Assembly: GCA_021827985.1 (NCBI GenBank)
Contig: JAKATL010000002.1
Coordinates: 62,001 to 126,000, forward strand
Source: a bacterium
GTDB lineage: Bacteria > Chloroflexota > Dormibacteria > Aeolococcales > Bog-877
Direction: 5' to 3'
DNA: 64,000 nt
The notes under the pieces were generated by a model. The model was not told the DNA's origin. It worked only from the letters and a program-made list of their open reading frames with translations, and ran no database searches. Shown piece after piece: positions 22,465-36,322 of the stretch (the first letter of the stretch is position 1; the number at the start of each line of letters is the position of its first letter). The translations under genes and the position numbers were made by a program.

Positions 22465-22495
22465 TTGACAAGGGGCGGCGCGGCTCTGGCAGAAT
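22465..22495 (+). promoter_or_regulatory. Candidate promoter of the Ehr-like operon
   Basis: TTGACA at 22465-22470, 19-base spacer, CAGAAT at 22490-22495. The predicted start near 22502 leaves an untranslated leader of about 80 bases. The rest of this gap (22271-22464) shows no supported gene. Confidence 0.5.
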
Positions 22496-22523
22496 AGCGT
22501 TGCGACGCGATGAGGCCCGCGTA

Positions 22524-22564
22524 AGCCGGCACTCCCGGCTAATGGCTTCTAGTAGCTGTTAGCC
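22524..22564 (+). promoter_or_regulatory. Leader with two mutually exclusive hairpins
   Basis: AGCCGG (22524-22529) can pair with CCGGCT (22535-22540). Alternatively GGCTAA (22537-22542) can pair with TTAGCC (22559-22564), with an inner GCT/AGC stem. Both use bases 22537-22540, so only one can form at a time. The element sits between the promoter and the TTG start of the first Ehr-like gene. No known riboswitch consensus is recognised. Confidence 0.4.
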
Positions 22565-22584
22565 CACCTTTCCGAGGGTTCGCG

Positions 22585-23532
22585 TTGCCGTACCTGCTGC
22601 AGTTCCTGCAGACCTTACTGATCCTAGCCATATCCCCGCTGTACGTCGGGGTCATTGCCAGGGGCACTGCGATTCTGCAGTCCAAGCACGGCCCCAGCGT
22701 CCTACAGCCCTATCGCGACCTGAGGAAGTGGCTTCACAAGGGGGTGGTCCGCTCCGAGCACGCGGGCCTGGTGTTTGTGGCGGCTCCGTACGTGGCCATG
22801 GCGTGCTATCTGACGGTGTCCACCATCGTTCCCATCATCACCGACGAGCCGCTGCCGCTCGCGTTCATGGGTGACCTGCTGGGCGGGGCGCTGGTGCTCG
22901 CGCTGGCCGGGTTTGCGATGTCGTTGGGGGCCATGGACTCGGCCAGCCCGTTAGGGGCGCTGGGGGCGAGCCGCACCGCCTGGCTTGGCAGCCTGGCGGA
23001 GCCCGCGCTCATCCTGGTCTTCTTCACCGTTGGGGTGCTGTCGGCGTCCGACAACCCCTACCTCATGAACCATGCTATAGCCGGTTCACCGGCGGCACTG
23101 ATTCTCCCCACCCATCTCCTCGGCGCGGTGGCCTTCCTCCTCCTCATCCTGGCCGAGAACGGCCACATCCCCGTCGACAATCCGGCCGGGACCACCGAGA
23201 TCGCGATGATCGAGGAGTCCCGGGTCCTGGAGTACTCAGGCCGGGATTACGCCCTGGTGAAGTGGGGCAGCTGGATGAAGTTCACCGTCCTTTCCTGCGT
23301 CTTCATGAACGTGTTCGTGCTTCCCTGGGGATTGGGGAGCGCCACCAGTCTCGCCCAGGGGTTGCTGGGGAGTGCCGCCGTGGCCGGCAAGCTGGCCTTG
23401 AGCGCGGCTCTGATGATGATGATTGACAGCTCCTTTGCCAAGTTGCGCTTCTTCAGGATCGCGGAGTATCTGGGGGGAGCGTTCCTGCTCGCGCTCATCG
23501 GGATCATCACCTCATACGTGGTGGGCAGGTAG
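22585..23532 (+). CDS. HyfC/HycD-like membrane subunit (NuoH family) of Ehr-like complex
   Basis: A 315-residue integral membrane protein homologous to formate hydrogenlyase subunit 4 and NuoH, the subunit joining the peripheral arm to the proton-pumping arm. It shows about 8 membrane helices. Family signatures present: GVIARGTAILQSKHGPSVLQPYRDLRKWLHK (about 26-56, the cytosolic loop) and HIPVDNPAGTTEIAMIEESRVLEYSG, which carries the conserved acidic loop. The TTG start has CCGAGGG about 7 bases upstream. It is the first gene of a ten-gene run with 2-base gaps or overlaps to the end at 33611. Confidence 0.9.
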   Translation: MPYLLQFLQTLLILAISPLYVGVIARGTAILQSKHGPSVLQPYRDLRKWLHKGVVRSEHAGLVFVAAPYVAMACYLTVSTIVPIITDEPLPLAFMGDLLGGALVLALAGFAMSLGAMDSASPLGALGASRTAWLGSLAEPALILVFFTVGVLSASDNPYLMNHAIAGSPAALILPTHLLGAVAFLLLILAENGHIPVDNPAGTTEIAMIEESRVLEYSGRDYALVKWGSWMKFTVLSCVFMNVFVLPWGLGSATSLAQGLLGSAAVAGKLALSAALMMMIDSSFAKLRFFRIAEYLGGAFLLALIGIITSYVVGR

Positions 23533-23534
23533 CC

Positions 23535-24206
23535 ATGCAGGAGTTGACGCTGGCCTCGCCCGGGGGCGCCGTCCTCAGTCTGACCGCGGTCCTGATTCTG
23601 CTGTCGGCACTGGCCTGTTTGGGGTCCAAACTCTTCGACCGTTACCTCACCTACTACGCGCTGCAGTCGGTGCTGCTGGCGGTGGCCGCCGCCACCGCCG
23701 CCTACCTGGAAGGGGACCCCGCCCTCTGGGTGCTGGCCGGCCTGACTCTGGTGCTGAAGGGATGGGCGATCCCCGCAGCAGCCCGTCATTGGCTGGTCCA
23801 ACGCCTTGACCTGAAGCGCGACAGCGGGATCACTACCGGCCTCTCCCTGACCTTGGTGCTGGGAACGGCTCTCTGTGCGTTCGCCTATCTGGCGGTGTCG
23901 CCCGAACGCTTGGCCCACGGCCTGCTCGCAGCCTCGGTGGTTCCCATCTCCACCGCCGTGGTTCTCCTTGGGGCTCTGGCGATGGTCGTGCGCCGGCACA
24001 TGGTCGCCCAGTTGATCGGCTGGCTGATCATGGAGAATGGGGTCTTCCTGGGAGCCATCACCCTCACCGCCAGCTTCCCCCTGATCGTCGAGGTGGGGAT
24101 CTTCTTCGATCTGCTGGCGGGCTTCCTGATCATGCTGGCGATGACCACGGGACTGGCTGAGCGGATCAGCCCCTTGCCCATCGGTCGATCAGGGCGGGAC
24201 TCCTGA
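23535..24206 (+). CDS. HyfE-like membrane subunit of Ehr-like complex
   Basis: A 223-residue membrane protein with about seven helices, matching hydrogenase-4 component E, which resembles a fusion of NuoJ- and NuoK-like helices. Supporting segments: FDRYLTYYALQSVLLA, LVLKGWAIPAAARHWL with the conserved Lys in a membrane-facing helix, and LIGWLIMENGVFLGAI with the buried Glu as in NuoK. It starts 2 bases after the HyfC-like stop. Its stop abuts the next gene (1-base overlap). Confidence 0.88.
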   Translation: MQELTLASPGGAVLSLTAVLILLSALACLGSKLFDRYLTYYALQSVLLAVAAATAAYLEGDPALWVLAGLTLVLKGWAIPAAARHWLVQRLDLKRDSGITTGLSLTLVLGTALCAFAYLAVSPERLAHGLLAASVVPISTAVVLLGALAMVVRRHMVAQLIGWLIMENGVFLGAITLTASFPLIVEVGIFFDLLAGFLIMLAMTTGLAERISPLPIGRSGRDS

Positions 24207-25684
24207 TGGTCTGGCTCCCGGTGCTGGTCGCCGCCTTGCCTCTGGTGGGCAGCGCCATCGCCACCTTTAGCGGCCGCACGGGGTGGGCAGCCGTCGCCAC
24301 CGTGGCCGGCGCCGCCGCAAGCCTGCTGCTGGCGGTTGTCGTGGCCACCGTCACCATTACCGGTGCGCCTCTGGCCAGCGCCGGAGCGTTCGTCTACGTG
24401 GACGGGTTGGGGGGGTTCTTCCTGGTCACCGTGGCGGCGGTGGTTCTTCTCGCCAGCCTGGGGTCCGCGTCCTACCTGGCAGTCGAGGAGCGCTCCGGGC
24501 AGCTGTCAGTCCGGCGGGTGAGGATCTACTTCGGAGCGTTCGGCCTCTTCGCCGCTGCGATGCTCGCCGCGGTCGAGACCGCCAATCTCGGGCTGTTGTT
24601 CATCTTGGTGGAGGCAGCGACCCTGGCGAGCGTGGTGCTGGTCCCCATAGAGGGGCGCACGGAGGGCCTGGAAGCCGGCTGGCGCTACGTGATCATCAGC
24701 AGCCTGGGGATCACCGTAGCGCTGGTCGGGGCGCTCTTCCTCTTCTACTCCGCCAGCGCCCTACCGGGGAGCGCGGAAGCCCACCTCGCCTGGCCGTTCC
24801 TCCTCGCCCATGCCCACCGGCTCGCCCCCACGGCCCTGCGGCTGGGATTCCTTCTGGGAGTCGTGGGCTACGGCACCAAGGTGGGTCTGGCACCGATGCA
24901 CACCTGGCTGCCGGATGCCCACGCCGAGGCTCCTGCGCCGGCGAGCGCGATGCTCTCGGGGGCTCTCCTGAATGTCGGAATGTACGCCATCATCCGGCTC
25001 CTGGCGATCGCCAACCGAGGGTTGGGATCCCAGTACGGCGGGCGGACGATGTTGGTCTTCGGCTTCCTGTCGGTGCTGGTGGGGGTTGTGTTCATGATCC
25101 GCCGGCGTGATTTCAAGCGACTTTTCGCCTACTCCTCCGTCGAGCACATGGGAATCATCGCGGTGGGGCTGGGCTTTGGCGGCGTGCTGGGGATCTATGG
25201 CGCCCTTCTGCATAGCCTGAACCACAGCCTGGGAAAGACCATCCTGTTCCTTAGCGGAGGGTCCGTGGCTCTGGCCTACGGCACCAGGCGGACCGATCGA
25301 CTCGGTGGCGTGGTCGGTGCCATGCCGTGGACTGGTGCGCTGCTGCTCGGCGCCGCCCTGGCCATCCTGGGCGCGCCGCCTTTCGGACTGTTCATCAGCG
25401 AGTTCACCATCGTTCGGGCGGGACTCGCGGGCGACCAGCCGTGGCTGGTTGCCCTGCTCCTGGCCCTCCTGGCGGTTGCGTTCCTGGCGTTCATAAGGAC
25501 CGTGGGCGGGATGCTGCTGGGTGCCCCTCGTGGTGTCCATCGGGAGCCATACCGCGGGTCACGCGAGCACCTCTTGGCGGTTGGCCCCTCTCTGGTGGGT
25601 CTGCTCGCCCTCTTGGGTCTCGGGCTCTGGATCCCCTCCTGGCTCAACTCTCTGCTGGCCCATTCGGTGGCCCTGGTGCGATGA
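24206..25684 (+). CDS. HyfF-like antiporter-type subunit (NuoN/MrpD family)
   Basis: A 492-residue Mrp-antiporter-like membrane subunit with about 14 helices, likely a proton- or sodium-translocating module. Typical residues: LFILVEAATLASVVLV (transmembrane Glu), VGYGTKVGLAPMHTWLPDAHAEAPAPASAML (TM7-8 Lys and discontinuous helix), RRDFKRLFAYSSVEHMG and LLHSLNHSLGKTILF with the TM12 Lys. All charged residues needed for ion transfer appear to be kept. Start ATG overlaps the HyfE-like stop by one base. Confidence 0.9.
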   Translation: MVWLPVLVAALPLVGSAIATFSGRTGWAAVATVAGAAASLLLAVVVATVTITGAPLASAGAFVYVDGLGGFFLVTVAAVVLLASLGSASYLAVEERSGQLSVRRVRIYFGAFGLFAAAMLAAVETANLGLLFILVEAATLASVVLVPIEGRTEGLEAGWRYVIISSLGITVALVGALFLFYSASALPGSAEAHLAWPFLLAHAHRLAPTALRLGFLLGVVGYGTKVGLAPMHTWLPDAHAEAPAPASAMLSGALLNVGMYAIIRLLAIANRGLGSQYGGRTMLVFGFLSVLVGVVFMIRRRDFKRLFAYSSVEHMGIIAVGLGFGGVLGIYGALLHSLNHSLGKTILFLSGGSVALAYGTRRTDRLGGVVGAMPWTGALLLGAALAILGAPPFGLFISEFTIVRAGLAGDQPWLVALLLALLAVAFLAFIRTVGGMLLGAPRGVHREPYRGSREHLLAVGPSLVGLLALLGLGLWIPSWLNSLLAHSVALVR

Positions 25685-27219
25685 ACGAGGGGGAGAGTGG
25701 ATTGACGCTCGCGCAGCTGGCCCGGAATGGCACCTCGAGCCAACCGATGGTTGTGAACCTGCACATGTCGGTCGCCGGCGCAGGCGACCTGGTGGCCAAA
25801 CTGGCACCGATCGCTCGCTTTGCCGACATGTTCGTCCGGCCGGCGGAGCAAGGGCTGGAGCGGGTGCTGGTGTTCGCCGATGCCCAGTCGGGCGGCTATC
25901 TACGCCTCATCTGCCCGTTGGACAAGAGCTTTCCGGTTCCGCTCTCCCGGGTGCTGCCGGCGGCGTACCAGGAGGAGTGCGAACTGTACGAGCTTTGGGG
26001 CGTCGAGCCAGGGGGCGGGAAGCCAGTGAACCGGGTGATCCTGCCCCCATCCGCGGAGACCGCTGAGCCCCTTCGACTACCCGGCGGTGACCGGCTGTCC
26101 AGCGAAGTCAGGGCTCCTCACGTCGTCCAGGGCGAGGCGATCGAGTTCCCCTGGGGGCCGATCCGCGGCGCGGGACAGGAGTCCTTGTACCTGGGGCTGG
26201 TGACCACCGGAGAAGAGCTTCTGGACGCTTACCTCGCGATGTTCCACAAACATCGGGGCCTGGAGCATCGGATGGTCGGGCAGACGCTGGCCCGTGCCCT
26301 ATTTCTGGCCGAGCGCTGTGAGGGCCTTGGCGCCGTGGGAAACGCCCTCGCCTTCGCCCGGGCCGCGGAGGCGGCCTTGGGCATCGCGGTCGAGCCAGCA
26401 GCGGAGGTGACCCGATGTCTGGCGCTCGAGCTGGAGCGCATCTACAACCACATCGGGTCCCTGGCGGCCCTCGGGGCTGCGACCGGGCTCAGCGTGGGTC
26501 AGGCCGAGGCGGAGATCCTCCTGGAGGACTGTCTTCGACTCAATGCCAGGGTGTTCGGCCACCGATACATTTTCAATCTCCTTGAAGTCGGAGGGGTCAG
26601 GCGCGGCGCCGACCTGGCGGCTCTGGATTCAGCACTGGATCGACTCGAAGCCAGGTTTGAGTCCCTGGTGGCGGACCTTTTGGCCACCAACTCCTACGTG
26701 GATCGGCTCGAGGGGGCTGGCACGATCGCAGCCGAGGCCGCCCATCGTCTGGGCCTGGTCGGGCCGGTGGCGCGAGCGGCCGGCGTGGCTACCGACTTGC
26801 GCCGCACGCATCAGGTCTCAAGCACCTCGTACGTCGGATTCCGGCCGGCGCGAGAGCAGCCCGGGGACTGCCTTGCCCGGATGCGGGTCGGTGCGGCGGA
26901 GGTGAGGGAGTCGCTGCGCCTTGTGCGCCACTGGGTTCGGTCCGGCACGCCACTTCAGGATGATTGGGCCACGCCAGGGCCCGGCCAGGACCATGTTGGG
27001 GGTCCCGCGGAGGGACTGGGATGGGCCGAGACCTGTCGCGGTGAAGCCCTCGTTCACCTGGAGGTGGCCGGGGGGCGGGTTAGCTTCGCTCGTCTGCGGC
27101 CGGCGGCGACGCGGAACTGGCGGGCGTTTGACGATGCCCTGCGGGCCCGCAACGTGTTCACCGACGTGCCCATCGTGGAAGCCAGTTTCTGGCTGACCGT
27201 GGCCGGTTTCGCGCGCTGA
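25681..27219 (+). CDS. HyfG-like large subunit (NuoC-NuoD fusion) without [NiFe] ligands
   Basis: A 512-residue protein of the hydrogenase-4 large subunit/NuoCD type. The NuoC-like part (about 25-130) has YLRLICPLDKSFPVPLSRVLPAAY and ECELYELWGVEP; the NuoD-like part follows with HRGLEHRMVGQT and LELERIYNHIGSLAALG. In active group 4 hydrogenases the four nickel-binding cysteines lie in ERxCxxC and near the C-terminus in DPCxxC. Here the first site reads AERCEGLGAVG (the lone Cys213 is out of register) and the C-terminus reads EASFWLTVAGFAR. All four ligands are missing, so H2 chemistry is not expected. Start ATG at 25681 overlaps the previous stop (ATGA). Confidence 0.88.
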   Translation: MNEGESGLTLAQLARNGTSSQPMVVNLHMSVAGAGDLVAKLAPIARFADMFVRPAEQGLERVLVFADAQSGGYLRLICPLDKSFPVPLSRVLPAAYQEECELYELWGVEPGGGKPVNRVILPPSAETAEPLRLPGGDRLSSEVRAPHVVQGEAIEFPWGPIRGAGQESLYLGLVTTGEELLDAYLAMFHKHRGLEHRMVGQTLARALFLAERCEGLGAVGNALAFARAAEAALGIAVEPAAEVTRCLALELERIYNHIGSLAALGAATGLSVGQAEAEILLEDCLRLNARVFGHRYIFNLLEVGGVRRGADLAALDSALDRLEARFESLVADLLATNSYVDRLEGAGTIAAEAAHRLGLVGPVARAAGVATDLRRTHQVSSTSYVGFRPAREQPGDCLARMRVGAAEVRESLRLVRHWVRSGTPLQDDWATPGPGQDHVGGPAEGLGWAETCRGEALVHLEVAGGRVSFARLRPAATRNWRAFDDALRARNVFTDVPIVEASFWLTVAGFAR

Positions 27220-27554
27220 TGGCACTGTGGGCCCTCCGCGGCGCTCGCCGGGGGATCGTCACGACTCGATTCCCCAGGCGCCCGGAGCCAGAGGCGGCCG
27301 GGTGGCCGGCTCCTCCTCGCTTCCGGGATGGTGAGATCAGACGCGATCTTGCGCTCCGGATGTCCGCTGCGTGTCCCAGCTCCGCTCTGGAGGTTGTCGG
27401 ACCGCGGCTGGTCTTGGATCTGGGCCGCTGCACCGCCTGTGGCCGATGCCTGGAGCTGGTGCAGGGCCCAGGGAGCAGCCGTCCTGAGGCGCTGCTGGCG
27501 ACCCGACGCCGGGCGAATCTGGTGGTCAGCTACCGCCTGGGAGATGTGAAGTGA
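27219..27554 (+). CDS. HyfH-like ferredoxin subunit reduced to one [4Fe-4S] cluster
   Basis: A 111-residue iron-sulfur subunit in the position of HyfH/NuoI. Normal members have two CxxCxxCxxxCP motifs. Here the first triplet is gone, leaving only ACP (Cys52-Pro53). The second is CTACGRC (Cys71, Cys74, Cys77) and lacks its fourth Cys-Pro, reading LELVQGPG. In two-cluster ferredoxins the fourth Cys of motif 1 completes the cluster held by motif 2, so the four remaining cysteines are exactly the ligand set for one cluster. The other cluster is lost. Start overlaps the HyfG-like stop by one base, and it ends with a GTGA overlap. Confidence 0.8.
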   Translation: MALWALRGARRGIVTTRFPRRPEPEAAGWPAPPRFRDGEIRRDLALRMSAACPSSALEVVGPRLVLDLGRCTACGRCLELVQGPGSSRPEALLATRRRANLVVSYRLGDVK

Positions 27555-28078
27555 CCCCGAGAGTTCTAGACCCAGGCGCCCTGCCGCTACCCGGCGCGGC
27601 GCATGGGGAGATCGACGCAGCCGCGGTCCGGCTGAAGCGGCGCAGTATGGCGGTTTTGCGCCGCAGCCTGCACATCCGCACGGTGGACACGGGGTCCTGC
27701 GGGGCTTGCGAGTCGGAGATACGGCTCCTCTCTTCCCCCTATTACGACTTCCATCGCCTTGGCCTGTTCTTCACCCCCACTCCCCGTCACGCCGACTGCC
27801 TGCTGGTTACCGGTCCGGGGTGCCGGGCGATGGATCATGCGCTCCTCAGCGCCTACGAGGCCATGCCGGCCCCCAAGGTGGTGGTGGCAGTGGGGGCGTG
27901 TCCGCTGGGCGGAGTGTTCGGCGCTGACCGCTACACACGAGGTGAGATCACGGACGTAGTTCCCGTCGACGTCGTCGTGCCGGGGTGCCCCCCAAGTCCG
28001 CTAGCCCTCATCCACGGTCTCCTTCTGGCCCTGGACCGGATTGAGGAGCGAATCACTCTTCAGGAAGGCGAGCAGTGA
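27551..28078 (+). CDS. HyfI-like small subunit (NuoB family) of Ehr-like complex
   Basis: A 175-residue subunit matching the NuoB/hydrogenase small-subunit fold. All four ligands of the proximal [4Fe-4S] cluster are kept: Cys50 and Cys53 in GSCGACESE, Cys117 in GACPLGG and Cys146 in PGCPPSP. It should pass electrons to or from the active-site region of the large subunit, where the nickel site is missing. GTG start overlaps the previous stop (GTGA). A quinone-like or other redox partner at the interface is possible but not shown by the sequence. Confidence 0.88.
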   Translation: MTPRVLDPGALPLPGAAHGEIDAAAVRLKRRSMAVLRRSLHIRTVDTGSCGACESEIRLLSSPYYDFHRLGLFFTPTPRHADCLLVTGPGCRAMDHALLSAYEAMPAPKVVVAVGACPLGGVFGADRYTRGEITDVVPVDVVVPGCPPSPLALIHGLLLALDRIEERITLQEGEQ

Positions 28079-30087
28079 ATCTGGGACTCGAGCTCGCGGT
28101 GACCGCAGCGGGCGCCTGGGCCGCAACCCTGATCGCCGCGGCGGCCGGCAGATGGCCCATCGGGCTGCGCGCTTGCTCCTGGCTGTCAGCCGTGGGAGGG
28201 GTTCTGGCGGCCGCCTCAGGCGTGGCCGTGATCGCCTCAGGTCGGGTGGGAGCGCTCACCCTGGAAAGGGGGGCGGCCGGTAGCCTTGTCCTTCGGACGA
28301 CGCCCTTGGCCGCTGTATTCATGGTCGCCCTCGGGCTGGTGGCCGTCGCCATCGGGATGTATGGGCCACGGTACCACCTTCCCAGTCCGGGAACTTCGGC
28401 CTATCAGGCGGCCTACACCGTTGCCCTGGTCGCGAGCCTCGGGGTGCTGCTCGCCGGCTCGGTCACCACATTTCTGGTCGCCTGGGAGACCATGACGATC
28501 GCCGGATACCTGATGATCCTGCGCCACCCGGGCCAGGCTGCGGCGGTCCGGGGCGGGTACCTCTTCCTCGCGCTGGGAGAGGTGGGCTTCATGATGGTGC
28601 TTGGAGCTTTGGGCGTGCTCGCTGCCTATACGGGAACGCTCTCGTTCGCTGAGATAGCGGTCCGCGTCCACTCGCTGCCGGCGGGGTACCAGGACCTGGT
28701 GTTCGTCCTCGCCCTTGTCGGGTTCGGGTTCAAAGCCGGCATCGTCCCGTTTCACATCTGGTTGCCAGAGGCCCATCCGGTCGCGCCCGCCGACGGCTCG
28801 GGGTTCCTCTCGGGGGTGGTCACCAAACTCGGTGTCTACGGCTTCATGCTGGTCGCCTTTGAGTTGCTGCCGAGGGGGCCGGTCTGGTGGGGGCTGCTCG
28901 CACTCGCCCTCGGAAGCCTCTCGGCGGTGCTGGGGGTCCTCTACTCGCTGATGGAGCGCGACTGGAAGAGGTTCCTGGCATTCTCCACGATCGAGAACAT
29001 CGGTATCGTGGTCATCGCGCTGGGCGCCTCTCTGACCTTCTTCGAGTCGGGGCTGAAAGCTCTGGGGGCGCTGCTGCTCATCGCCGGCCTGTACCAGGTG
29101 CTCAACCACGCCGCCTACAAGACGTTGCTCTTCCTCGGGGTAGGGGTGGTGGAACATGCGGCGGGGACACGGGACATGGACCGCCTAGGGGGATTGGCTC
29201 GCCGCCTTCCCAAGACGGCGGTCCTGATGCTGGTGGGGTCCCTCGGCATAGCCGCCCTGCCACCCCTGAACGGATTCGTGTCAGAGTGGCTCATCTTCCA
29301 GGGCCTCTTCCAGGGCTTCAGGATAGGCTCCCACCTGACCGCCGTTCTACTGGTGGTGGCGGCCGCGGTGCTGGCGCTTACCGGGGGATTGGCGGTGGGC
29401 GCCTTCGCGCGGAGCTTTGGGATACCCCTGCTCGGCATGCCGAGGGGCGCAGGTGCTGCGGCTGCCACGGAGCAAAGGCAGCCGTGGCTGGGTGGCGCCT
29501 TCCTAGCCGGGGACTGCGTCTTCCTGGCGCTGGGAGCCCCGCTGGTGCTGGGCGGCCTGGGCAATGTCGCCGGGGAGATCTCCGGAGAACACCTGGGCGG
29601 CCTGTTGCTGGTGCCAGGACTGACCATCATCCCCGCCCACGTTGCCTTCAGCTCGCTCGCGCCGACCTGGCTGGCGGTCTGCCTGGTCGCGATGCTGGCC
29701 GTGCCGTTCGCCATCTCCCGGGTAGGTCGGGGCGGGGAGGCGGACCGGGTCGGCCCGGTCTGGGCTGGGGGAATGCTCCGCTTTCGGGCGCGGATGCAGT
29801 ACTCCGCCACCACGTTCGCCAACCCCGTGCGCGTCACCTTCGATCGCCTCTATCGCCCCACGGTGGAGGTCGCCCGGGCCTCGGATGACCCCGCCGGCCA
29901 GTCGGGTCCGGTGCACTACGGCTTCCGAGTGACCCCAGTCTTCGAGCGGGGGCTGTACCAGCCGGCGGCCCGGCTTCTGAGCCGCATTGGGGCCGCCGCC
30001 AACCGCCTGCAATCGGGGAACGTCAACACCTATCTGCTCTACGTGTTCGTAGCCATCCTCATCGCCTATGGGGCGGCGCTGCTGTGA
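28075..30087 (+). CDS. HyfB-like antiporter-type subunit (NuoL family)
   Basis: A 670-residue membrane protein with about 16 helices, homologous to hydrogenase-4 component B and NuoL. Conserved features: FLVAWETMTIAGYLMIL (transmembrane Glu), VGFGFKAGIVPFHIWLPEAHPVAPADGSGFLSG (TM7-8 Lys and His), ERDWKRFLAFSTIENIG and NHAAYKTLLFLGVG (TM12 Lys). It ends with a hydrophobic anchor VNTYLLYVFVAILIAYGAALL (about 650-670). It is the second antiporter-like module in the operon, placed last among the complex genes rather than first as in the hyf operon. GTG start overlaps the previous stop; its own stop overlaps the first MutS-like gene. Confidence 0.9.
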   Translation: MNLGLELAVTAAGAWAATLIAAAAGRWPIGLRACSWLSAVGGVLAAASGVAVIASGRVGALTLERGAAGSLVLRTTPLAAVFMVALGLVAVAIGMYGPRYHLPSPGTSAYQAAYTVALVASLGVLLAGSVTTFLVAWETMTIAGYLMILRHPGQAAAVRGGYLFLALGEVGFMMVLGALGVLAAYTGTLSFAEIAVRVHSLPAGYQDLVFVLALVGFGFKAGIVPFHIWLPEAHPVAPADGSGFLSGVVTKLGVYGFMLVAFELLPRGPVWWGLLALALGSLSAVLGVLYSLMERDWKRFLAFSTIENIGIVVIALGASLTFFESGLKALGALLLIAGLYQVLNHAAYKTLLFLGVGVVEHAAGTRDMDRLGGLARRLPKTAVLMLVGSLGIAALPPLNGFVSEWLIFQGLFQGFRIGSHLTAVLLVVAAAVLALTGGLAVGAFARSFGIPLLGMPRGAGAAAATEQRQPWLGGAFLAGDCVFLALGAPLVLGGLGNVAGEISGEHLGGLLLVPGLTIIPAHVAFSSLAPTWLAVCLVAMLAVPFAISRVGRGGEADRVGPVWAGGMLRFRARMQYSATTFANPVRVTFDRLYRPTVEVARASDDPAGQSGPVHYGFRVTPVFERGLYQPAARLLSRIGAAANRLQSGNVNTYLLYVFVAILIAYGAALL

Positions 30088-31667
30088 TGCCAATTACCGG
30101 CGGCCCGACTCGGCCCAACGGTGACTCGGCCGGGGGCCGGGCCGGCGCGAGCCTGCTCTTCCCGGGACCGGTCCCCGAGCAGCCCGGGACCCTGGATGGC
30201 GAGTGGCTGGTGGATCTGCGTCTCGATCAGCTGATCTCGCAGGTCACCGGCGGCCGGGAGTCCTACCAACTGGCGCAGCCGTTCCGCATCCGGCTCCGGA
30301 CGCCCGAGGAGGTTCGCTATCGGCAGGAAGTGTGCCGTGACCTTGAGCTTCCGGCGGTCGCGGACGCCTGGCGCAACTTCAGCCAGCAGCTGGCCGAAAC
30401 GCGTGCCTGCCTGGGCCGGGCCGACAGGATGCGGCATAAGTGGGAACGGAGCCTCTGGCATCTCGACGCGGTGGTCGAGTACGTGCGAGCGGTGGAGGAG
30501 CTTGTTGCCGCGCTTGAAGTTGCAGGCTTTTCGTCCGCCGCGTTGGCGGCCGCTCGGGACTACCTGCGAGGCTACCAGGCGTCCTCGGAGTTCTCGGATC
30601 TGGCCCGGGAGGGGCGCGAGGTCAGGGGCGAATTGGGCGCTCTCCGCTACTCCGTCAAGGTGACTGGCAATCGGGTCGCTGTGGGGCGCTTCCTGGGGGA
30701 GGCCGACCTGGGTGAGGAGGTCACCGACGCGTTCCGGCGGTTTCAGCAGATCGCCGTGGCCGGACGGGAGTTCGACGTCAGCCGTCCCGAGTTCCTGGAC
30801 CCGGTGGAGCTGAGGATCCTGGATCGCGTGGCCCGGTTGTTCCCCGAGCCCTTCAGCCGCCTCGAACGGTTCTGTCTCCGGGCACCTCAGTTCCGCGACG
30901 CGGTCGTCATGGAGCTCGACCGGGAGGCGCAGTTCTACCTCTCTTACCTGGACTTTCTCGCCCCGGTCAGGGGGGCCGGCCTGTCTGTCTGCTATCCCGA
31001 GGTGGTCGAGGTGGGCGAGCCAGTCGGGGCGGACTCCACATACGAACTCGTCCTGGCCCGCAAGCTGGTCGCCCTGGGCCAGGGGGTGGTCGTCAACGAC
31101 TTCCGCCTCACGGGCGCCGAGCGCATCCTGGTCGTGTCCGGACCGAACCAGGGTGGCAAGACGACGTTCGCTATCACCGTGGGTCAGGTCTTTCACCTGG
31201 GGGCGCTGGGCCTTCCCGTGGCGGGCTCCCAGGCCCGGATCTCGGTCTGCGACGCCGTCCTGACGCACTTTGGCCGCACCGAGGACCTGGGAGAGCGACA
31301 GGGCCGGCTGGAGGCCGACCTCGCCGCCCTGGCGAAGATCCTCTCCGGGGCCACGGACCGGAGCGTGGTCATTTTGAACGAGACTTTCGGCTCTGCCAGC
31401 TTGCAGGACGCTCGATCTCTCGGGCGGAGGGTTCTGGAACGGCTGGTGGCGATCGGGGTCCGCGGCGTCTACGTCACGTTCATCGATGAACTCGCAAGCA
31501 TGGGGCCGGCCATGGTGAGCATGGTGAGTATGGTCGACCCCGAAGATCCGGCTGAACGGACCTTCAGGGTGGAGCGGCGGCCGCCCGACGGCCTCGCCTA
31601 TGCCCTGGCGATCGCCCGCAAGTACCGGCTGACCCACGATCAGCTCAGGGAGCGGTTGGGCAGGTGA
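30084..31667 (+). CDS. MutS-like ATPase 1
   Basis: A 527-residue protein with a MutS-type ATPase at the C-terminus: Walker A VVSGPNQGGKTTF (about 349-361), the DAVLTHFGRTEDLGERQGRL segment matching the MutS loop before Walker B, and Walker B VVILNETFGS (about 428-437). The first 330 residues are helical with lever/core-like repeats. There is no mismatch-recognition domain with the FYE motif, no Smr nuclease domain as in MutS2 and no clear clamp. It is therefore a short MutS-like protein of unknown target. It starts with GTG (30084) or ATG (30087), the former overlapping the HyfB-like stop, and is coupled by GTGA overlap to a second MutS-like gene. Confidence 0.85.
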   Translation: MMPITGGPTRPNGDSAGGRAGASLLFPGPVPEQPGTLDGEWLVDLRLDQLISQVTGGRESYQLAQPFRIRLRTPEEVRYRQEVCRDLELPAVADAWRNFSQQLAETRACLGRADRMRHKWERSLWHLDAVVEYVRAVEELVAALEVAGFSSAALAAARDYLRGYQASSEFSDLAREGREVRGELGALRYSVKVTGNRVAVGRFLGEADLGEEVTDAFRRFQQIAVAGREFDVSRPEFLDPVELRILDRVARLFPEPFSRLERFCLRAPQFRDAVVMELDREAQFYLSYLDFLAPVRGAGLSVCYPEVVEVGEPVGADSTYELVLARKLVALGQGVVVNDFRLTGAERILVVSGPNQGGKTTFAITVGQVFHLGALGLPVAGSQARISVCDAVLTHFGRTEDLGERQGRLEADLAALAKILSGATDRSVVILNETFGSASLQDARSLGRRVLERLVAIGVRGVYVTFIDELASMGPAMVSMVSMVDPEDPAERTFRVERRPPDGLAYALAIARKYRLTHDQLRERLGR

Positions 31668-33169
31668 AGCCTCACCTGCTGTTTGCGGATCGCGACTTCA
31701 ACCGTGAGGGTGAGCTCCCAGACTCCGCGGGCGATCTCAGCCAGGACCTGGGCCTGGAGACAATTTGGCGGGCCATGAGTGGAGGTGACCGGTTCATCTG
31801 GGACGTGGTCCGACGGGTAACCCTGGAAGGACTGAAGACAGTCGAGGACATCGACTATCGCCAGGAGGTGGCCCGGGATCTAATGGATCGGGCGGAGGAA
31901 TTGGAGCAGCTCTACCAGGTGGCGGTCGATGCGGTGGAGTCGGAGAGACGGATCTGGGGCCTCAGCGGGCGCCATCCAGCGGGTGCGCTGCATCACGGCG
32001 TGGAGGTGCTCTCAGTTCTGGTACCGGCCGCTCGACGCCTGCGCGACCTCAGTGAGGGCATGAGGAGCAGCTGGAAGTCGAGGGGGTTGAACCAGTTCGC
32101 GGCGAGCCTCAGGCAGGACCTCGACGACGCTTACCTTGAACGGGTCAGTGCGCTGCTAAGGGCCCTGCGGCTGGAGTCAGGGGCACTGTTCGGGGCCAAC
32201 CTGGGAGCGGGCGGCGCCGGGAGCGGATACCTCCTTCTGCGGCCATCGGCGCGAAGGGTCCCTCTTGGCGAACGGCTGGGGGTGCGGGAACGCTCACAGC
32301 ACGTCTTCACCGTGGACCCTCGAGATGAGATGGGGCTGAAGGCTCTCGGAAACCTGACCGACCGGGGCCTGGCCGGCGTCGCCAGTTCGGTGTCCGAAGC
32401 GGCAGACCATGTGCTGGCGTTCTTCCGGTCTCTCCGCTTCGAGCTTGGCTTCTACCTCGGCTGCCTCAATCTCCACCGCGCCCTGGCGGACCAGGGGCTG
32501 CCCGTCTGCTGGCCCCGGCTGGCTCCCGGGGAGGAGCGGCGGTGGTCTGCTCGAGGGCTCTACGACCTCACGCTTCCACTTCGCGACGGGACCCGGCCCG
32601 TGGGGAACGATCTGGATGCGGACGGCTGCCCTTTGCTGGTGATCACTGGAGCCAACTCCGGAGGAAAGAGCACCTTCGTCAGAAGCTTGGCCATGGCCCA
32701 GCTGTTGGCCCAATCGGGCATGTTCGTGGGCGCTCGAGGGTTCGTCTCGAGCCTGGCCACCAGTACCCACACCCACTTTGTCCGTCCGGAGGACGATTCC
32801 ATGTCCCGCGGCAGGCTGGCGGATGAGCTGGAGCGCCTGAGCAGGACCGTGGACCAAATGAGGCCAAGCGCGCTCCTGGCCATGAACGAGTCCTTCTCAT
32901 CCACCAATGAGTTGGAAGGTTCCGAGATCGCCCGCCAGGTGATAACCGCGCTTCTGGAGGGCGGAGTGCGGGTGGCCATCGTGACCCACTTTTTTGAGCT
33001 GGCGAGCTCGCTTCTGGAATCTCCCCCCCGGCCCGCGGCTTTTCTCCGCGCCGAGCGTCTTGCCGATGGGAGTCGAACTTACCGGGTCCCGCCAGGTGAG
33101 CCGCTGGCGACGGCGTTCGGGTCGGACCTGCTGGGGAGGCCGAACTCTGAAGGCCGGATGGATGGCTAG
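31664..33169 (+). CDS. MutS-like ATPase 2
   Basis: A 501-residue partner of the preceding gene. It has Walker A LVITGANSGGKSTF (about 324-337), STSTHTHFVRPEDDSMSRGRLADEL (split: the loop with conserved acidic residues), Walker B LLAMNESFSSTNELEGSEIA and the switch His in AIVTHFFELA. The helical N-terminal region contains DIDYRQEVARDLMDR, echoing EEVRYRQEVCRDLEL of MutS-like 1. The two are therefore diverged paralogues that may form a heterodimer. It lacks mismatch-recognition and Smr domains. GTG start overlaps the first gene's stop, and its own stop lies inside the next gene. Confidence 0.85.
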   Translation: MKPHLLFADRDFNREGELPDSAGDLSQDLGLETIWRAMSGGDRFIWDVVRRVTLEGLKTVEDIDYRQEVARDLMDRAEELEQLYQVAVDAVESERRIWGLSGRHPAGALHHGVEVLSVLVPAARRLRDLSEGMRSSWKSRGLNQFAASLRQDLDDAYLERVSALLRALRLESGALFGANLGAGGAGSGYLLLRPSARRVPLGERLGVRERSQHVFTVDPRDEMGLKALGNLTDRGLAGVASSVSEAADHVLAFFRSLRFELGFYLGCLNLHRALADQGLPVCWPRLAPGEERRWSARGLYDLTLPLRDGTRPVGNDLDADGCPLLVITGANSGGKSTFVRSLAMAQLLAQSGMFVGARGFVSSLATSTHTHFVRPEDDSMSRGRLADELERLSRTVDQMRPSALLAMNESFSSTNELEGSEIARQVITALLEGGVRVAIVTHFFELASSLLESPPRPAAFLRAERLADGSRTYRVPPGEPLATAFGSDLLGRPNSEGRMDG

Positions 33170-33611
33170 GTCGGGTTGGACCGCTTCGGGTGATCTGTTC
33201 CAGGACCTCTGGGGCGCCCGGGAGCTGCGGAGCTGGGAGCGAGCCCTGGCCCACGCCATTCGCGTCAGGTGTCGCCTCGGGCCCACATCGGTTCGATTGC
33301 TCTTCCTGGTGGCCGCCTCCGGCCCCCAGGGGATCGGAGTGGTGCAGTTGGCCGCAGCGCTGGGTCTCTCCACCAGCGGTGCCAGCCGGGCTGCGGCCCC
33401 GCTTGTGAGCCGGGGGCTGGTGGAGCGACGTGCGTCAGCAGCTGACCGACGTCTCCGGCCGCTCACCCTATCCGCCGAAGGAGCGCAGCTGGTGCGCGCT
33501 CTCGTGCTGACCCCACCGAGTGTGCCCGCGTCGGGGCTGGGGCAGAGCGGCACGGAGACGAAAGGCGCGGAGGGCCGGGGACAGCCGCCAGCGGGTTCCC
33601 CTCTGGGTTAG
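33162..33611 (+). CDS. MarR-type winged-helix regulator, last gene of the Ehr-like operon
   Basis: A 149-residue DNA-binding protein. The central part is a MarR winged helix: [39 protein letters not shown] (recognition helix at about 60-72) and then the wing [22 protein letters not shown] with the MarR DRR motif. The C-terminal 30 residues are Gly/Pro-rich and may be disordered. ATG at 33162 overlaps the MutS-like 2 stop by 8 bases; longer frames run through that gene. As the last gene of the operon it is a candidate autoregulator, but no palindrome was identified near the operon promoter. Confidence 0.72.
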
Positions 33612-33670: not shown

Positions 33671-36322
33671 ATGCGACTCGACCGGTTCACCCAGCGCAGC
33701 CAGGAAGCTCTGGAGGACGCCACTCAGCTGGCCACCTCGGGCTCGCACCCACAGGTAGATCCCGAGCATCTGCTCCTGGCGTTGCTCCGCCAGTCGGACG
33801 GATCGGTGCCGGCGCTCCTTCGCCAGTTGGAGGTCGACCCCGCACAGGTCGCTGAGCGGGTCAGTTCGGACCTTGCCGGGCGGCCCCGGCAGGAGGGAGC
33901 AACGCCTACGGCCTCCCGGGAGCTGGAGCAGGTGCTGCGCTCGGCGTGGGAGGAGATGGAGCGGCTCCAGGACGAGTACTGCTCCACCGAGCACCTCCTG
34001 CTGGCGCTGGCGGCGCTGCCCGGTGGCCCTGCCGCCGGGATCCTGCGGTCCGCAGGGGTGAACCGGGAGCGGCTTCTGCGGGCGCTGGAGGGGCTTCGGC
34101 AGGGTCAGCGGGTGACCGACCCCAACCCGGAGAGCAAGTTCCAGGTGCTGGATAAGTACGCGCGGGATCTCACCCAGCTGGCGCGTGAAGGCAAGCTGGA
34201 CCCCGTCATAGGGCGCGATGAAGAGATTCGACGGACCATGCAGGTGCTGGCCCGCCGCACCAAGAACAACCCGGTGCTCATCGGCGATCCCGGGGTGGGG
34301 AAGACCGCCATCGTCGAGGGCCTGGCCCAGCGCATCGCCGCGGGAGACGTGCCCGAGACTCTGAAGAACCGGCGGGTGGTGGCCCTGGATCTGGGCACCC
34401 TGGTCGCCGGGACCAAGTTCCGGGGTGAGTTCGAAGAGCGCCTCAAGGCCCTACTGAAGGAGGTGGCCGATTCCAGCGGCCAGGTGGTTCTCTTCATTGA
34501 CGAGCTTCACACCCTGATCGGGGCGGGGGCGGCCGAGGGGGCCATGGACGCCAGCAACATGCTCAAGCCGGCGCTGGCTCGGGGCGAGCTGAGGGCGATT
34601 GGTGCCACCACCTATGACGAGTACCGCAAGCACATTGAGAAGGATCCAGCGCTGGAACGCCGCTTCCAGCCGGTCTACGTGGGTGAGCCGTCGGTCGAGG
34701 ACACGGTCAGCATCCTCCGCGGGCTGAAGGAGCGCTACGAGGTCCACCACGGGGTCCGGATCAAGGACTCGGCCCTGGTGGCCGCCGCGGTGCTGTCGTC
34801 CCGCTACATCAGCGGCCGGTTCCTCCCCGACAAGGCCATCGACCTAGTGGACGAGGCGGCCTCCCGGCTGCGCATGGAGATCGACTCCATGCCGGTGGAG
34901 CTGGACCAGGTGGAGCGTGGCATCCGTCAGCTGGAGATCGAGCGTCAGGCTCTGCGCAAGGAGACAGACCGGGCTTCGGTCGAGCGGCTCCAGTCGCTGG
35001 AGCGGGAGCTCGCGGACCTGCAAGAGCAGGCGGTCGGACTGCGCCAGCGGTGGGAGCGCGAGAAGGCCCAGATCGCCCGGACGCGCGCCATCAAGGAGGA
35101 GATCGAGCGGGTCACCTTCGAGGCCGAGCGGGCGGAGCGCATGGCCGACTTCGGTCGGGCCGCGGAACTCCGCTACGGTCGGCTGGGGGAGCTGCGCTCC
35201 CAGTTAGCCGAGCAGCAGGCCCGCCTGGACCAGACCCCGGATGGCGAGCCCCTGCTCAAGGAGGAGGTGGGGGAGGAGGACATCGCCGAGGTGGTCTCCC
35301 GCTGGACCGGGATCCCGGTGCAGCGGATGCTGGAGGGGGAGGTCCACAAGCTGGTGGAGATGGAGGCGCGCCTGCACCAGCGGGTGGTGGGCCAGGACGA
35401 GGCGATCTCGGCCGTGGCCAGCGCCGTGCGGCGGGCTCGCGCCGGCCTCCAGGACCCAAGGCGCCCGCTGGGGTCCTTCATCTTCCTCGGTCCTACCGGG
35501 GTGGGCAAGACTGAGGTGGCGAGGGCGCTGGCGGAATTCCTCTTCGACAGCGAGGACGCGATGGTCCGCCTGGACATGTCGGAGTACATGGAGAAGCACT
35601 CGGTGGCCCGCCTGGTCGGTGCTCCTCCTGGGTACGTCGGCTATGAGGAGGGTGGGCATCTCACCGAGGCCGTGCGTCGCCGACCCTATGCGGTGCTCCT
35701 GCTGGACGAGATCGAGAAGGCTCATCCGGACGTCTTCAACGTGCTCTTGCAACTGCTCGACGATGGCCGGCTCACCGACGGCAAGGGGCACACCGTCGAC
35801 TTCCGCAACTGCGTCGTGATCATGACTAGCAACCTGGGCAGTCCGGTCATCGCCGCCCTCCCCGACCACCCCAGTCCCGAGGCGCAGGAGGGGGCCAGGC
35901 AGGCGGTACTGGCGGAGCTGCGCTCGCAGTTCCGGCCCGAATTCCTCAACCGCGTGGATGACATCATCATCTTCCAGCGGCTGGATCTCGCGCAGATTGA
36001 GCGCATCGTGGCACTGCAGCTGGAGGAGATGCGCGCGCGCCTCGCTGACCGGCACTTGGATCTGCGACCCCTGCCGACGGCGGTGCGTTGGCTGGCTGAG
36101 AAGGGCTACGACCCCGTGTACGGTGCCCGCCCCCTGCGGCGGCTGATCCAGCGGCAGCTGGCCGATCGGGTCGCCGTGGGAGTCCTCGATGGAACATTCG
36201 CCGAGGGCGACGTCATCACGGTGGACGCCGATGCCTCGGGCCTTGTCCTCCACCGTGAGGTCAGGGCCGGCTCGGAGGCGGAGCCAGAGACGGTGGACGC
36301 CCAGGTGGAGGTTCTGGGCTGA
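33671..36322 (+). CDS. clpB: Chaperone disaggregase ClpB
   Basis: An 883-residue Hsp100 AAA+ ATPase that rescues aggregated protein with DnaK. Order: double Clp-N repeat (1-145), first AAA domain with GDPGVGKT (about 205-212) and [14 protein letters not shown], a long coiled-coil middle domain (about 390-520, rich in ER/EL heptads), second AAA domain with GPTGVGKT (about 607-614), [13 protein letters not shown] and sensor MTSNLGS, and a C-terminal D2 small domain. The long middle domain separates ClpB from ClpC. Start ATG has GGAGGTG 5 bases upstream and a TATATC hexamer about 40 bases upstream. No HAIR or CIRCE operator is seen. Confidence 0.93.

Follow-up and report, generated by a model that had tools for sequence, protein, structure and literature searches.

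The window analysed here is a 64,000-nucleotide stretch of contig JAKATL010000002.1 (assembly GCA_021827985.1), from a bacterium of the Dormibacteria (Chloroflexota), and our subject is a ten-gene operon within it, together with the RNA leader that precedes it. Ten open reading frames, all on the + strand, occupy positions 22585–33611 and are joined by a 2-base gap followed by overlaps of 1, 4, 1, 4, 4, 4, 4 and 8 bases. Seven encode subunits of a membrane complex related to hydrogenase 4 and complex I; two genes for MutS-like ATPases, here called MutS1 and MutS2, and one for a MarR-type regulator follow (Table 1). Coordinates, strand, family calls and all nine junctions agree with a preliminary description of this DNA, and this anatomy supports its view of one co-expressed unit. 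Gene order and tight spacing are kept in five further members of the genus (G002–G005 and G007), some of whose contigs are truncated or gapped. The ratio of nonsynonymous to synonymous substitution rates (dN/dS) lies between 0.06 and 0.42 across all ten genes, as expected under purifying selection; we therefore take all ten to be protein-coding and none to be a chance frame. The preliminary description was right about the ten genes, but it started the operon at 22585 and overlooked a riboswitch leader upstream, where the operon appears to begin.

The leader

Between a divergent beta-eliminating-lyase gene and hyfC, the first gene of the operon, lies an RNA with the architecture of the fluoride riboswitch aptamer (RF01734). 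Its parts are P1 (5 bp, 22505–22509/22518–22522), P2 (6 bp, 22524–22529/22535–22540), a loop-to-tail pseudoknot (22512–22517/22544–22549) whose 6 bp, GAGGCC/GGCTTC, are intact, and the conserved cores, all within a 5′ leader, so that each structural hallmark of RF01734 is present. The second of the GAUG cores reads AAUG, as it does in two loci, L047 and L079, that both score above the Rfam gathering cut-off. The core is invariant, with variable flanks and at the same position, in each of the seven genus members that have retained the locus, and the aptamers that precede the same genes in relatives score 34–62 bits in Rfam. R2, a custom covariance model built solely from aptamers outside this genus, gives the window aptamer 24.5 bits (E = 1.4e-4 in 1.3 Mb), the second-ranking match in the whole genome. 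Judging from these sequence comparisons, the operon is very probably under fluoride control.

A promoter-like box may stand just 5′ of the aptamer; its first hexamer is TTGACA in six genus leaders and TGGACA in G006. A consensus promoter scan confined to spacers of 16–18 nt did not return this TTGACA-N19-CAGAAT box. Folding of the seven leaders predicts an anti-aptamer hairpin (22537–22564) and a further hairpin that hides the Shine–Dalgarno sequence (22574–22578), and in the predicted ligand-free fold the TTG start pairs with the 5′ strand of the aptamer (22502–22510) in 7 of 7 leaders. Such a fold would fit a translational ON switch: in the fluoride-free leader the Shine–Dalgarno sequence and the UUG start would be paired, and fluoride, by steadying the aptamer, would free both. 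A terminator scan gave nothing exceeding chance, and we therefore propose a translational platform rather than a terminator.

Table 1. Features of the operon and its leader, in window coordinates.
Feature	Position	Strand	Evidence and remarks
Promoter-like TTGACA-N19-CAGAAT, tentative (long spacer)	22465..22495	+	Just 5′ of aptamer; alignment of 7 genus leaders
Fluoride riboswitch aptamer (RF01734)	22497..22558	+	Rfam and custom model R2; 26 nt 5′ of first start codon
Predicted expression platform	22537..22588	+	Folding of 7 leaders; prediction
HyfC/NuoH-like membrane subunit	22585..23532	+	Pfam NADHdh 5e-30; dN/dS ~0.07
HyfE-like membrane subunit	23535..24206	+	NCBIfam NF008556 3e-16
HyfF-like antiporter-type subunit	24206..25684	+	Family calls; E136, K225, H340, K344, E399 invariant in clade
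HyfG-like large subunit without [NiFe] CxxC ligands	25681..27219	+	Pfam Complex1_49kDa
111-aa ferredoxin-like HyfH remnant	27219..27554	+	CP...CxxCxxC conserved in relatives
HyfI/NuoB-like subunit	27551..28078	+	Four proximal-cluster Cys at 50, 53, 117, 146
HyfB-like antiporter-type subunit, last gene of complex	28075..30087	+	K220, E307, H345, K349, E404 invariant
MutS-like ATPase 1 (MutS1), core and domain V	30084..31667	+	Walker B N432-E433; TF replaces TH motif
MutS-like ATPase 2 (MutS2), core and domain V	31664..33169	+	Walker B N408-E409; TH motif retained
MarR-type regulator, last gene of operon	33162..33611	+	Pfam MarR_2 1e-11

A membrane complex without NiFe ligands

Both CxxC motifs that would ligate [NiFe] are missing from HyfG in 11 of 11 aligned relatives, and ERxEG and DxPIIEASF stand where they would be. 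The solved structure nearest to HyfG is that of Escherichia coli HycE (PDB 7z0s); comparison with it and with the membrane-bound hydrogenase (6cfw) finds neither NiFe-binding motif. Group-4-like and antiporter-type subunits that lack NiFe ligands place the complex among the energy-converting hydrogenase-related (Ehr) complexes, as had been proposed. The product of the fifth gene, for which the family search of the operon proteins gave no match, carries the ligands for one [4Fe-4S] cluster (one CP and one CxxCxxC), that is, one half of a ferredoxin. Because the window keeps this cluster and the four HyfI cysteines, electrons could still be passed as far as HyfI.

All four iron–sulphur (Fe–S) cysteines of HyfI have been lost in a fluoride-linked subclade (L044, 19371–20207; L049, 19978–20757; L076, 2355–3134; the second copy in L097, 15087–16118; L115, 17344–18186) and also in L197; SDGxD/E, for example, then stands where SCxxC is expected. 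The glutamate of transmembrane helix (TM) 5, the TM7 lysine, the TM8 histidine/lysine and the TM12 glutamate, which form the proton path in complex I, are nevertheless invariant in 22 of 22 HyfF and in nearly all HyfB, and they persist even where the HyfI cysteines are gone. For this reason ion translocation, in the service of pH and proton-motive force, is the economical reading of the complex; it would agree with the weak-acid nature of entering hydrogen fluoride (HF) and with how often Na+/H+ antiporters occur in fluoride regulons (PMC11139923). We give this role slightly better than an even chance; that it is drawn from conserved residues counts against it.

A search for HyfG across 301 Chloroflexota genomes, which avoids selection through MutS, distinguished three kinds of operon. 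Those like the window's (no CxxC ligands, gene order C-E-F-G-fdx-I-B) have an aptamer in 6 of 6 readable leaders; operons with CxxC ligands and hyfB first have one in 0 of 13, and other ligand-less operons with hyfB first in 0 of 7. In a tree of 44 HyfG, all fluoride-type sequences lie to the same side of a branch supported at 100/99. They span six groups (Actinomycetota, Chloroflexota, Pseudomonadota, Thermodesulfobacteriota, Bacillota and one archaeon), but those from outside the Chloroflexota were recruited via the MutS pair, and their fluoride link is therefore no independent count. At the MutS-pair loci the aptamer precedes hyfC in 10 of 11 hyfC starts, in one case across an intervening histidine phosphatase gene. 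By the evidence of these leaders, the complex is by itself a fluoride module.

Two further sets of HyfG loci came to light. L203–L206, L212 and L213 combine a HyfG that has the NiFe CxxC motifs with a HyfI that lacks most or all four cluster cysteines, which is odd for a hydrogenase. L217–L223 form a distinct NiFe-less Ehr clade in small-genome Chloroflexota, with hyfB first and no fluoride aptamers.

The MutS-like pair and its separability from the complex

A MutS1 profile search gave relatives in many phyla, and the pair counts that follow refer to the best 80 loci, at 38–49% identity. These span about 16 phyla, with bacterial and four archaeal lineages among them, and MutS1 lies next to MutS2 in 79, the exception (L062) stopping at a contig edge; the pair is thus conserved in distant genomes, which the preliminary description had named as support for a functional system. 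An aptamer lies 54–629 nt 5′ of MutS1 in 53 of the 79 loci that have upstream sequence (seven of the 53 contributed to training the aptamer model), and 71 of the 80 have at least one. Rfam, at its own cut-off, independently places fluoride riboswitches at the same sites before the pair, and an unselected Chloroflexota sample has an aptamer at 19 of 24 pair loci. Recurrent neighbours are enolase (23 loci), CrcB/Fluc, DUF190, inorganic pyrophosphatase (12 loci), a Na+/H+ exchanger and UspA, and further a histidine phosphatase, a P-type ATPase, a major facilitator superfamily transporter and a dynamin-family GTPase (29 loci). By this gene content, the surroundings of the pair are fluoride islands. 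What weighs against a general fluoride link is that about one-third of the pair loci have no aptamer directly upstream and that at 9 of 80 the retrieved stretch is free of any. The archaeal lineages are Bathyarchaeota, Woesearchaeota, Nitrososphaerota and Thermoplasmatota, all from bins of metagenome-assembled genomes in which contamination is possible; archaeal contigs with the pair and nearby fluoride aptamers are L103, L068, L098, L067 and L093.

The two proteins are about 500–530 residues long. Pfam detects only MutS_V (domain V), and neither Pfam nor NCBIfam finds mismatch-recognition domain I, a connector, Smr or KOW, in keeping with the earlier claim that mismatch-recognition and Smr domains are lacking. 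The score of TIGR01069, which describes the MutS2 family, is far under its cut-off. Sequence matches to MutS/MSH structures in the PDB are limited to the C-terminal ATPase region, and AlphaFold models of MutS1 and MutS2 (predicted local distance difference test score 84) resemble the core of the MutS2 family and the lever and ATPase of MutS/MSH. Walker A (GPNQGGKT/GANxGGKS) and the catalytic glutamate are retained, as in a P-loop ATPase. The Walker-B aspartate is replaced by asparagine (NE) in 112 of 115 MutS1 and 92 of 101 MutS2 with readable motifs, and MutS1 has TF in place of the TH motif that MutS2 keeps. These differences make the two copies look specialized, and MutS1 and MutS2 are likely to form a heterodimer. 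PADLOC gave no defence-system kinship for the pair.

The genus member G006 separates the two modules. Its aptamer, MutS1, MutS2 and MarR are intact, while of the complex there remain a broken hyfC and the 3′ end of hyfB, the genes between them being lost. By dN/dS, MutS1 (0.29) and MutS2 (0.19) are still under purifying selection, and selection on the hyfC remnant is relaxed, the ratio having risen from about 0.07 to 0.33. Direct coupling of hyfB to MutS1 is seen in this genus only. Most pair loci have no complex nearby (hyf genes lie within 10 kb in 17 of 80), and where a complex is present it usually has a fluoride riboswitch of its own. Since the complex has decayed in G006 while switch and pair survive, the best-supported interpretation is that joint fluoride control, and not physical partnership, joins the modules.

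The same evidence bears on the idea, put forward in the preliminary description for assembly and gating and extended here to maturation, that the MutS-like ATPases serve the membrane complex in one of these ways. The translational coupling in six genus members and the 17 loci with hyf genes argue for this, but the absence of hyf genes near most pair loci, the separate riboswitches and the selection that has kept the pair in G006 argue against it, and genome-level co-occurrence in the 301 Chloroflexota is modest; we regard it as quite unlikely. Rather less credible still is an operon free of fluoride control, in which the aptamer-like RNA of the window would be a decayed copy or a resemblance by chance. 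In a permissive search Rfam gives the leader 21.0 bits (E = 0.0013), short of the gathering score of 34, and at the gathering threshold it returns no match across the window; P1 pairing deviates from consensus, and similar R2 scores, of 18–22 bits, occur elsewhere in the genome. These points count against fluoride control, but a core held invariant in seven genomes amid changing flanks and an unbroken pseudoknot are not expected of a look-alike, and relatives, among them G008 (52.8 bits), have aptamers before homologous operons and before the pair where it stands alone. Least credible of all is a working formate hydrogenlyase or hydrogenase, providing anaerobic energy under fluoride (reviewed in PMC11139923). 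HycE as the closest solved relative and the fluoride riboswitches reported 5′ of 'formate hydrogen lyase' genes would suit it, but the two CxxC pairs are missing also from all nine fluoride-type Chloroflexota HyfG, family searches find no formate dehydrogenase gene among the ten operon genes, and one subclade has given up the HyfI cluster as well.

For the pair itself, the reading of 2010, which preceded knowledge of the ligand, was DNA repair, induced because fluoride stress damages DNA (PMC2864571). A MutS core with its ATPase fold and the association with crcB RNA in the literature agree with it, but proteins of this length with domain V alone, matched by MutS/MSH structures at the ATPase end, make it unlikely; no MutL, nuclease or repair gene is among the recurrent neighbours identified, and the genomes also hold separate, longer MutS-family proteins. 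Doubtful too, if a little less so, is a KamC-like reactivase that pries a fluoride–phosphate inhibitor off enolase or pyrophosphatase. KamC is the best family match of the MutS2-like protein (1e-17), and both supposed clients recur near the pair, but they are generic fluoride genes and not necessarily clients, and the match reaches 64 bits, in the ATPase region only, against a cut-off of 300 over the full length for NF052383. We rejected kinship with KamC because ordinary MutS-family proteins score higher (150–248 versus 60–85 bits). For the pair we favour, as a guess more likely wrong than right, the resetting or clearing of an Mg-dependent target that fluoride has poisoned; it counts against this role that the target is a guess and that the likeness to KamC, confined to the ATPase, is weaker than in the ordinary MutS2 family.

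A probable fluoride-stress operon and its relation to known systems

We believe that the locus is likely to be a fluoride-induced stress operon of two separable modules behind one riboswitch, and that complex and pair are probably fluoride-stress proteins rather than agents of hydrogen metabolism or DNA repair. The Ehr-type complex, having lost its [NiFe] chemistry, would drive H+ or Na+ out, or exchange them, probably through its antiporter-type subunits, and so restore the pH and proton-motive force ruined by HF entry. The MutS-like proteins would act independently of the complex as an ATP-dependent pair, presumably a heterodimer, whose Walker-B Asn ATPase sites might do the resetting or clearing. 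MarR may be a local regulator, and this genus has put both modules behind a single riboswitch. CrcB/Fluc was not found in eight genus genomes, whose assemblies are incomplete, and the genus appears to be without this exporter; it may therefore rely on the complex and the MutS pair. Some genus genomes have a CLC protein; that of this genome, with the filter GHGVP...GREGP, was not found adjoining a riboswitch.

Several neighbouring features deserve mention. The ClpB disaggregase gene (33671–36322) begins 59 nt past the MarR gene, with a GGGCGA/TCGCCC hairpin in the gap, and could be part of the ten-gene message; it is the same neighbour in G002 and G006. Similarity in the MarR gene itself is intact in G006 and broken in G002. 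The second fluoride riboswitch of the genome (36 bits, above the Rfam cut-off) lies directly 5′ of a dynamin-family GTPase gene (L143 4225–6033; G000 contig C18, ~96224–98030), and the literature searched held no fluoride role for bacterial dynamins. R2 also matches G000 at C2:17744–17802 (~21.5 bits), with similar scores in G002, G003, G004 and G007, that is, in five genus genomes.

Weinberg et al. (2010) already listed mutS ('DNA repair') and formate hydrogen lyase among the genes preceded by crcB motifs (PMC2864571); the ligand was identified as fluoride by Baker et al. (2012), as far as the account given in PMC7266159 goes, and a 2024 review still interprets the latter targets as formate hydrogen lyase (PMC11139923). 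The preliminary description's claim of an undescribed link therefore holds in part: the targets were on record, but searches of the literature on Ehr with MutS and on fluoride riboswitches with MutS found no published study of the fluoride-linked MutS pair, and in the literature searched neither gene set had been studied. New here are the identities of these targets: the 'lyase' is a complex without NiFe that probably translocates ions, and the 'mutS' is an ATPase pair with altered Walker B; both labels are probably wrong. Two fluoride-regulon targets listed since 2010 thereby gain corrected identities, and what were annotation puzzles become hypotheses on fluoride defence that can be tested; fluoride tolerance is relevant to organofluorine and per- and polyfluoroalkyl substance (PFAS) biotechnology. 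More speculatively, and with the chances well against it, these could be two undescribed defence machines: a widespread heterodimeric MutS-like ATPase, its Mg site naturally altered by Walker-B Asn in both subunits, that would release Mg-dependent targets from states trapped by fluoride, and a NiFe-less Ehr clade, partly without HyfI Fe–S ligands, that would exchange ions to counter fluoride or the acid brought in by HF.

The operon shares with the fluoride riboswitch regulon its RNA class, the broad annotation of its targets and its companion genes. It differs in having both targets on one transcript, in a 'lyase' that is NiFe-less, in a 'mutS' that is a conserved pair without mismatch domains, and in a genus that apparently lacks Fluc. 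Ehr complexes, NiFe-less and of unknown function (PMC6349859, PMC10284858), resemble the window's complex in their group-4-like subunits, two antiporter-type subunits and missing Ni/Fe ligands, but the latter belongs to a separate HyfG clade, with the order C-E-F-G-fdx-I-B, a fluoride riboswitch and no formate dehydrogenase in the operon; from HycE (7z0s), the nearest solved homologue, its HyfG differs in lacking both CxxC pairs. The pair has the core and lever helices and the domain V ATPase in common with the MutS2 core of Thermus thermophilus (PDB 7vuf) and with MutS, from which it is set apart by the absence of Smr/KOW and mismatch domains, the Walker-B asparagine and its two adjacent, unlike copies. 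With KamC, the reactivase of lysine 5,6-aminomutase (NF052383), it shares a MutS-like ATPase and a length of about 500 residues, but the window protein lies far under the curated cut-off and the similarity is in the ATPase alone.

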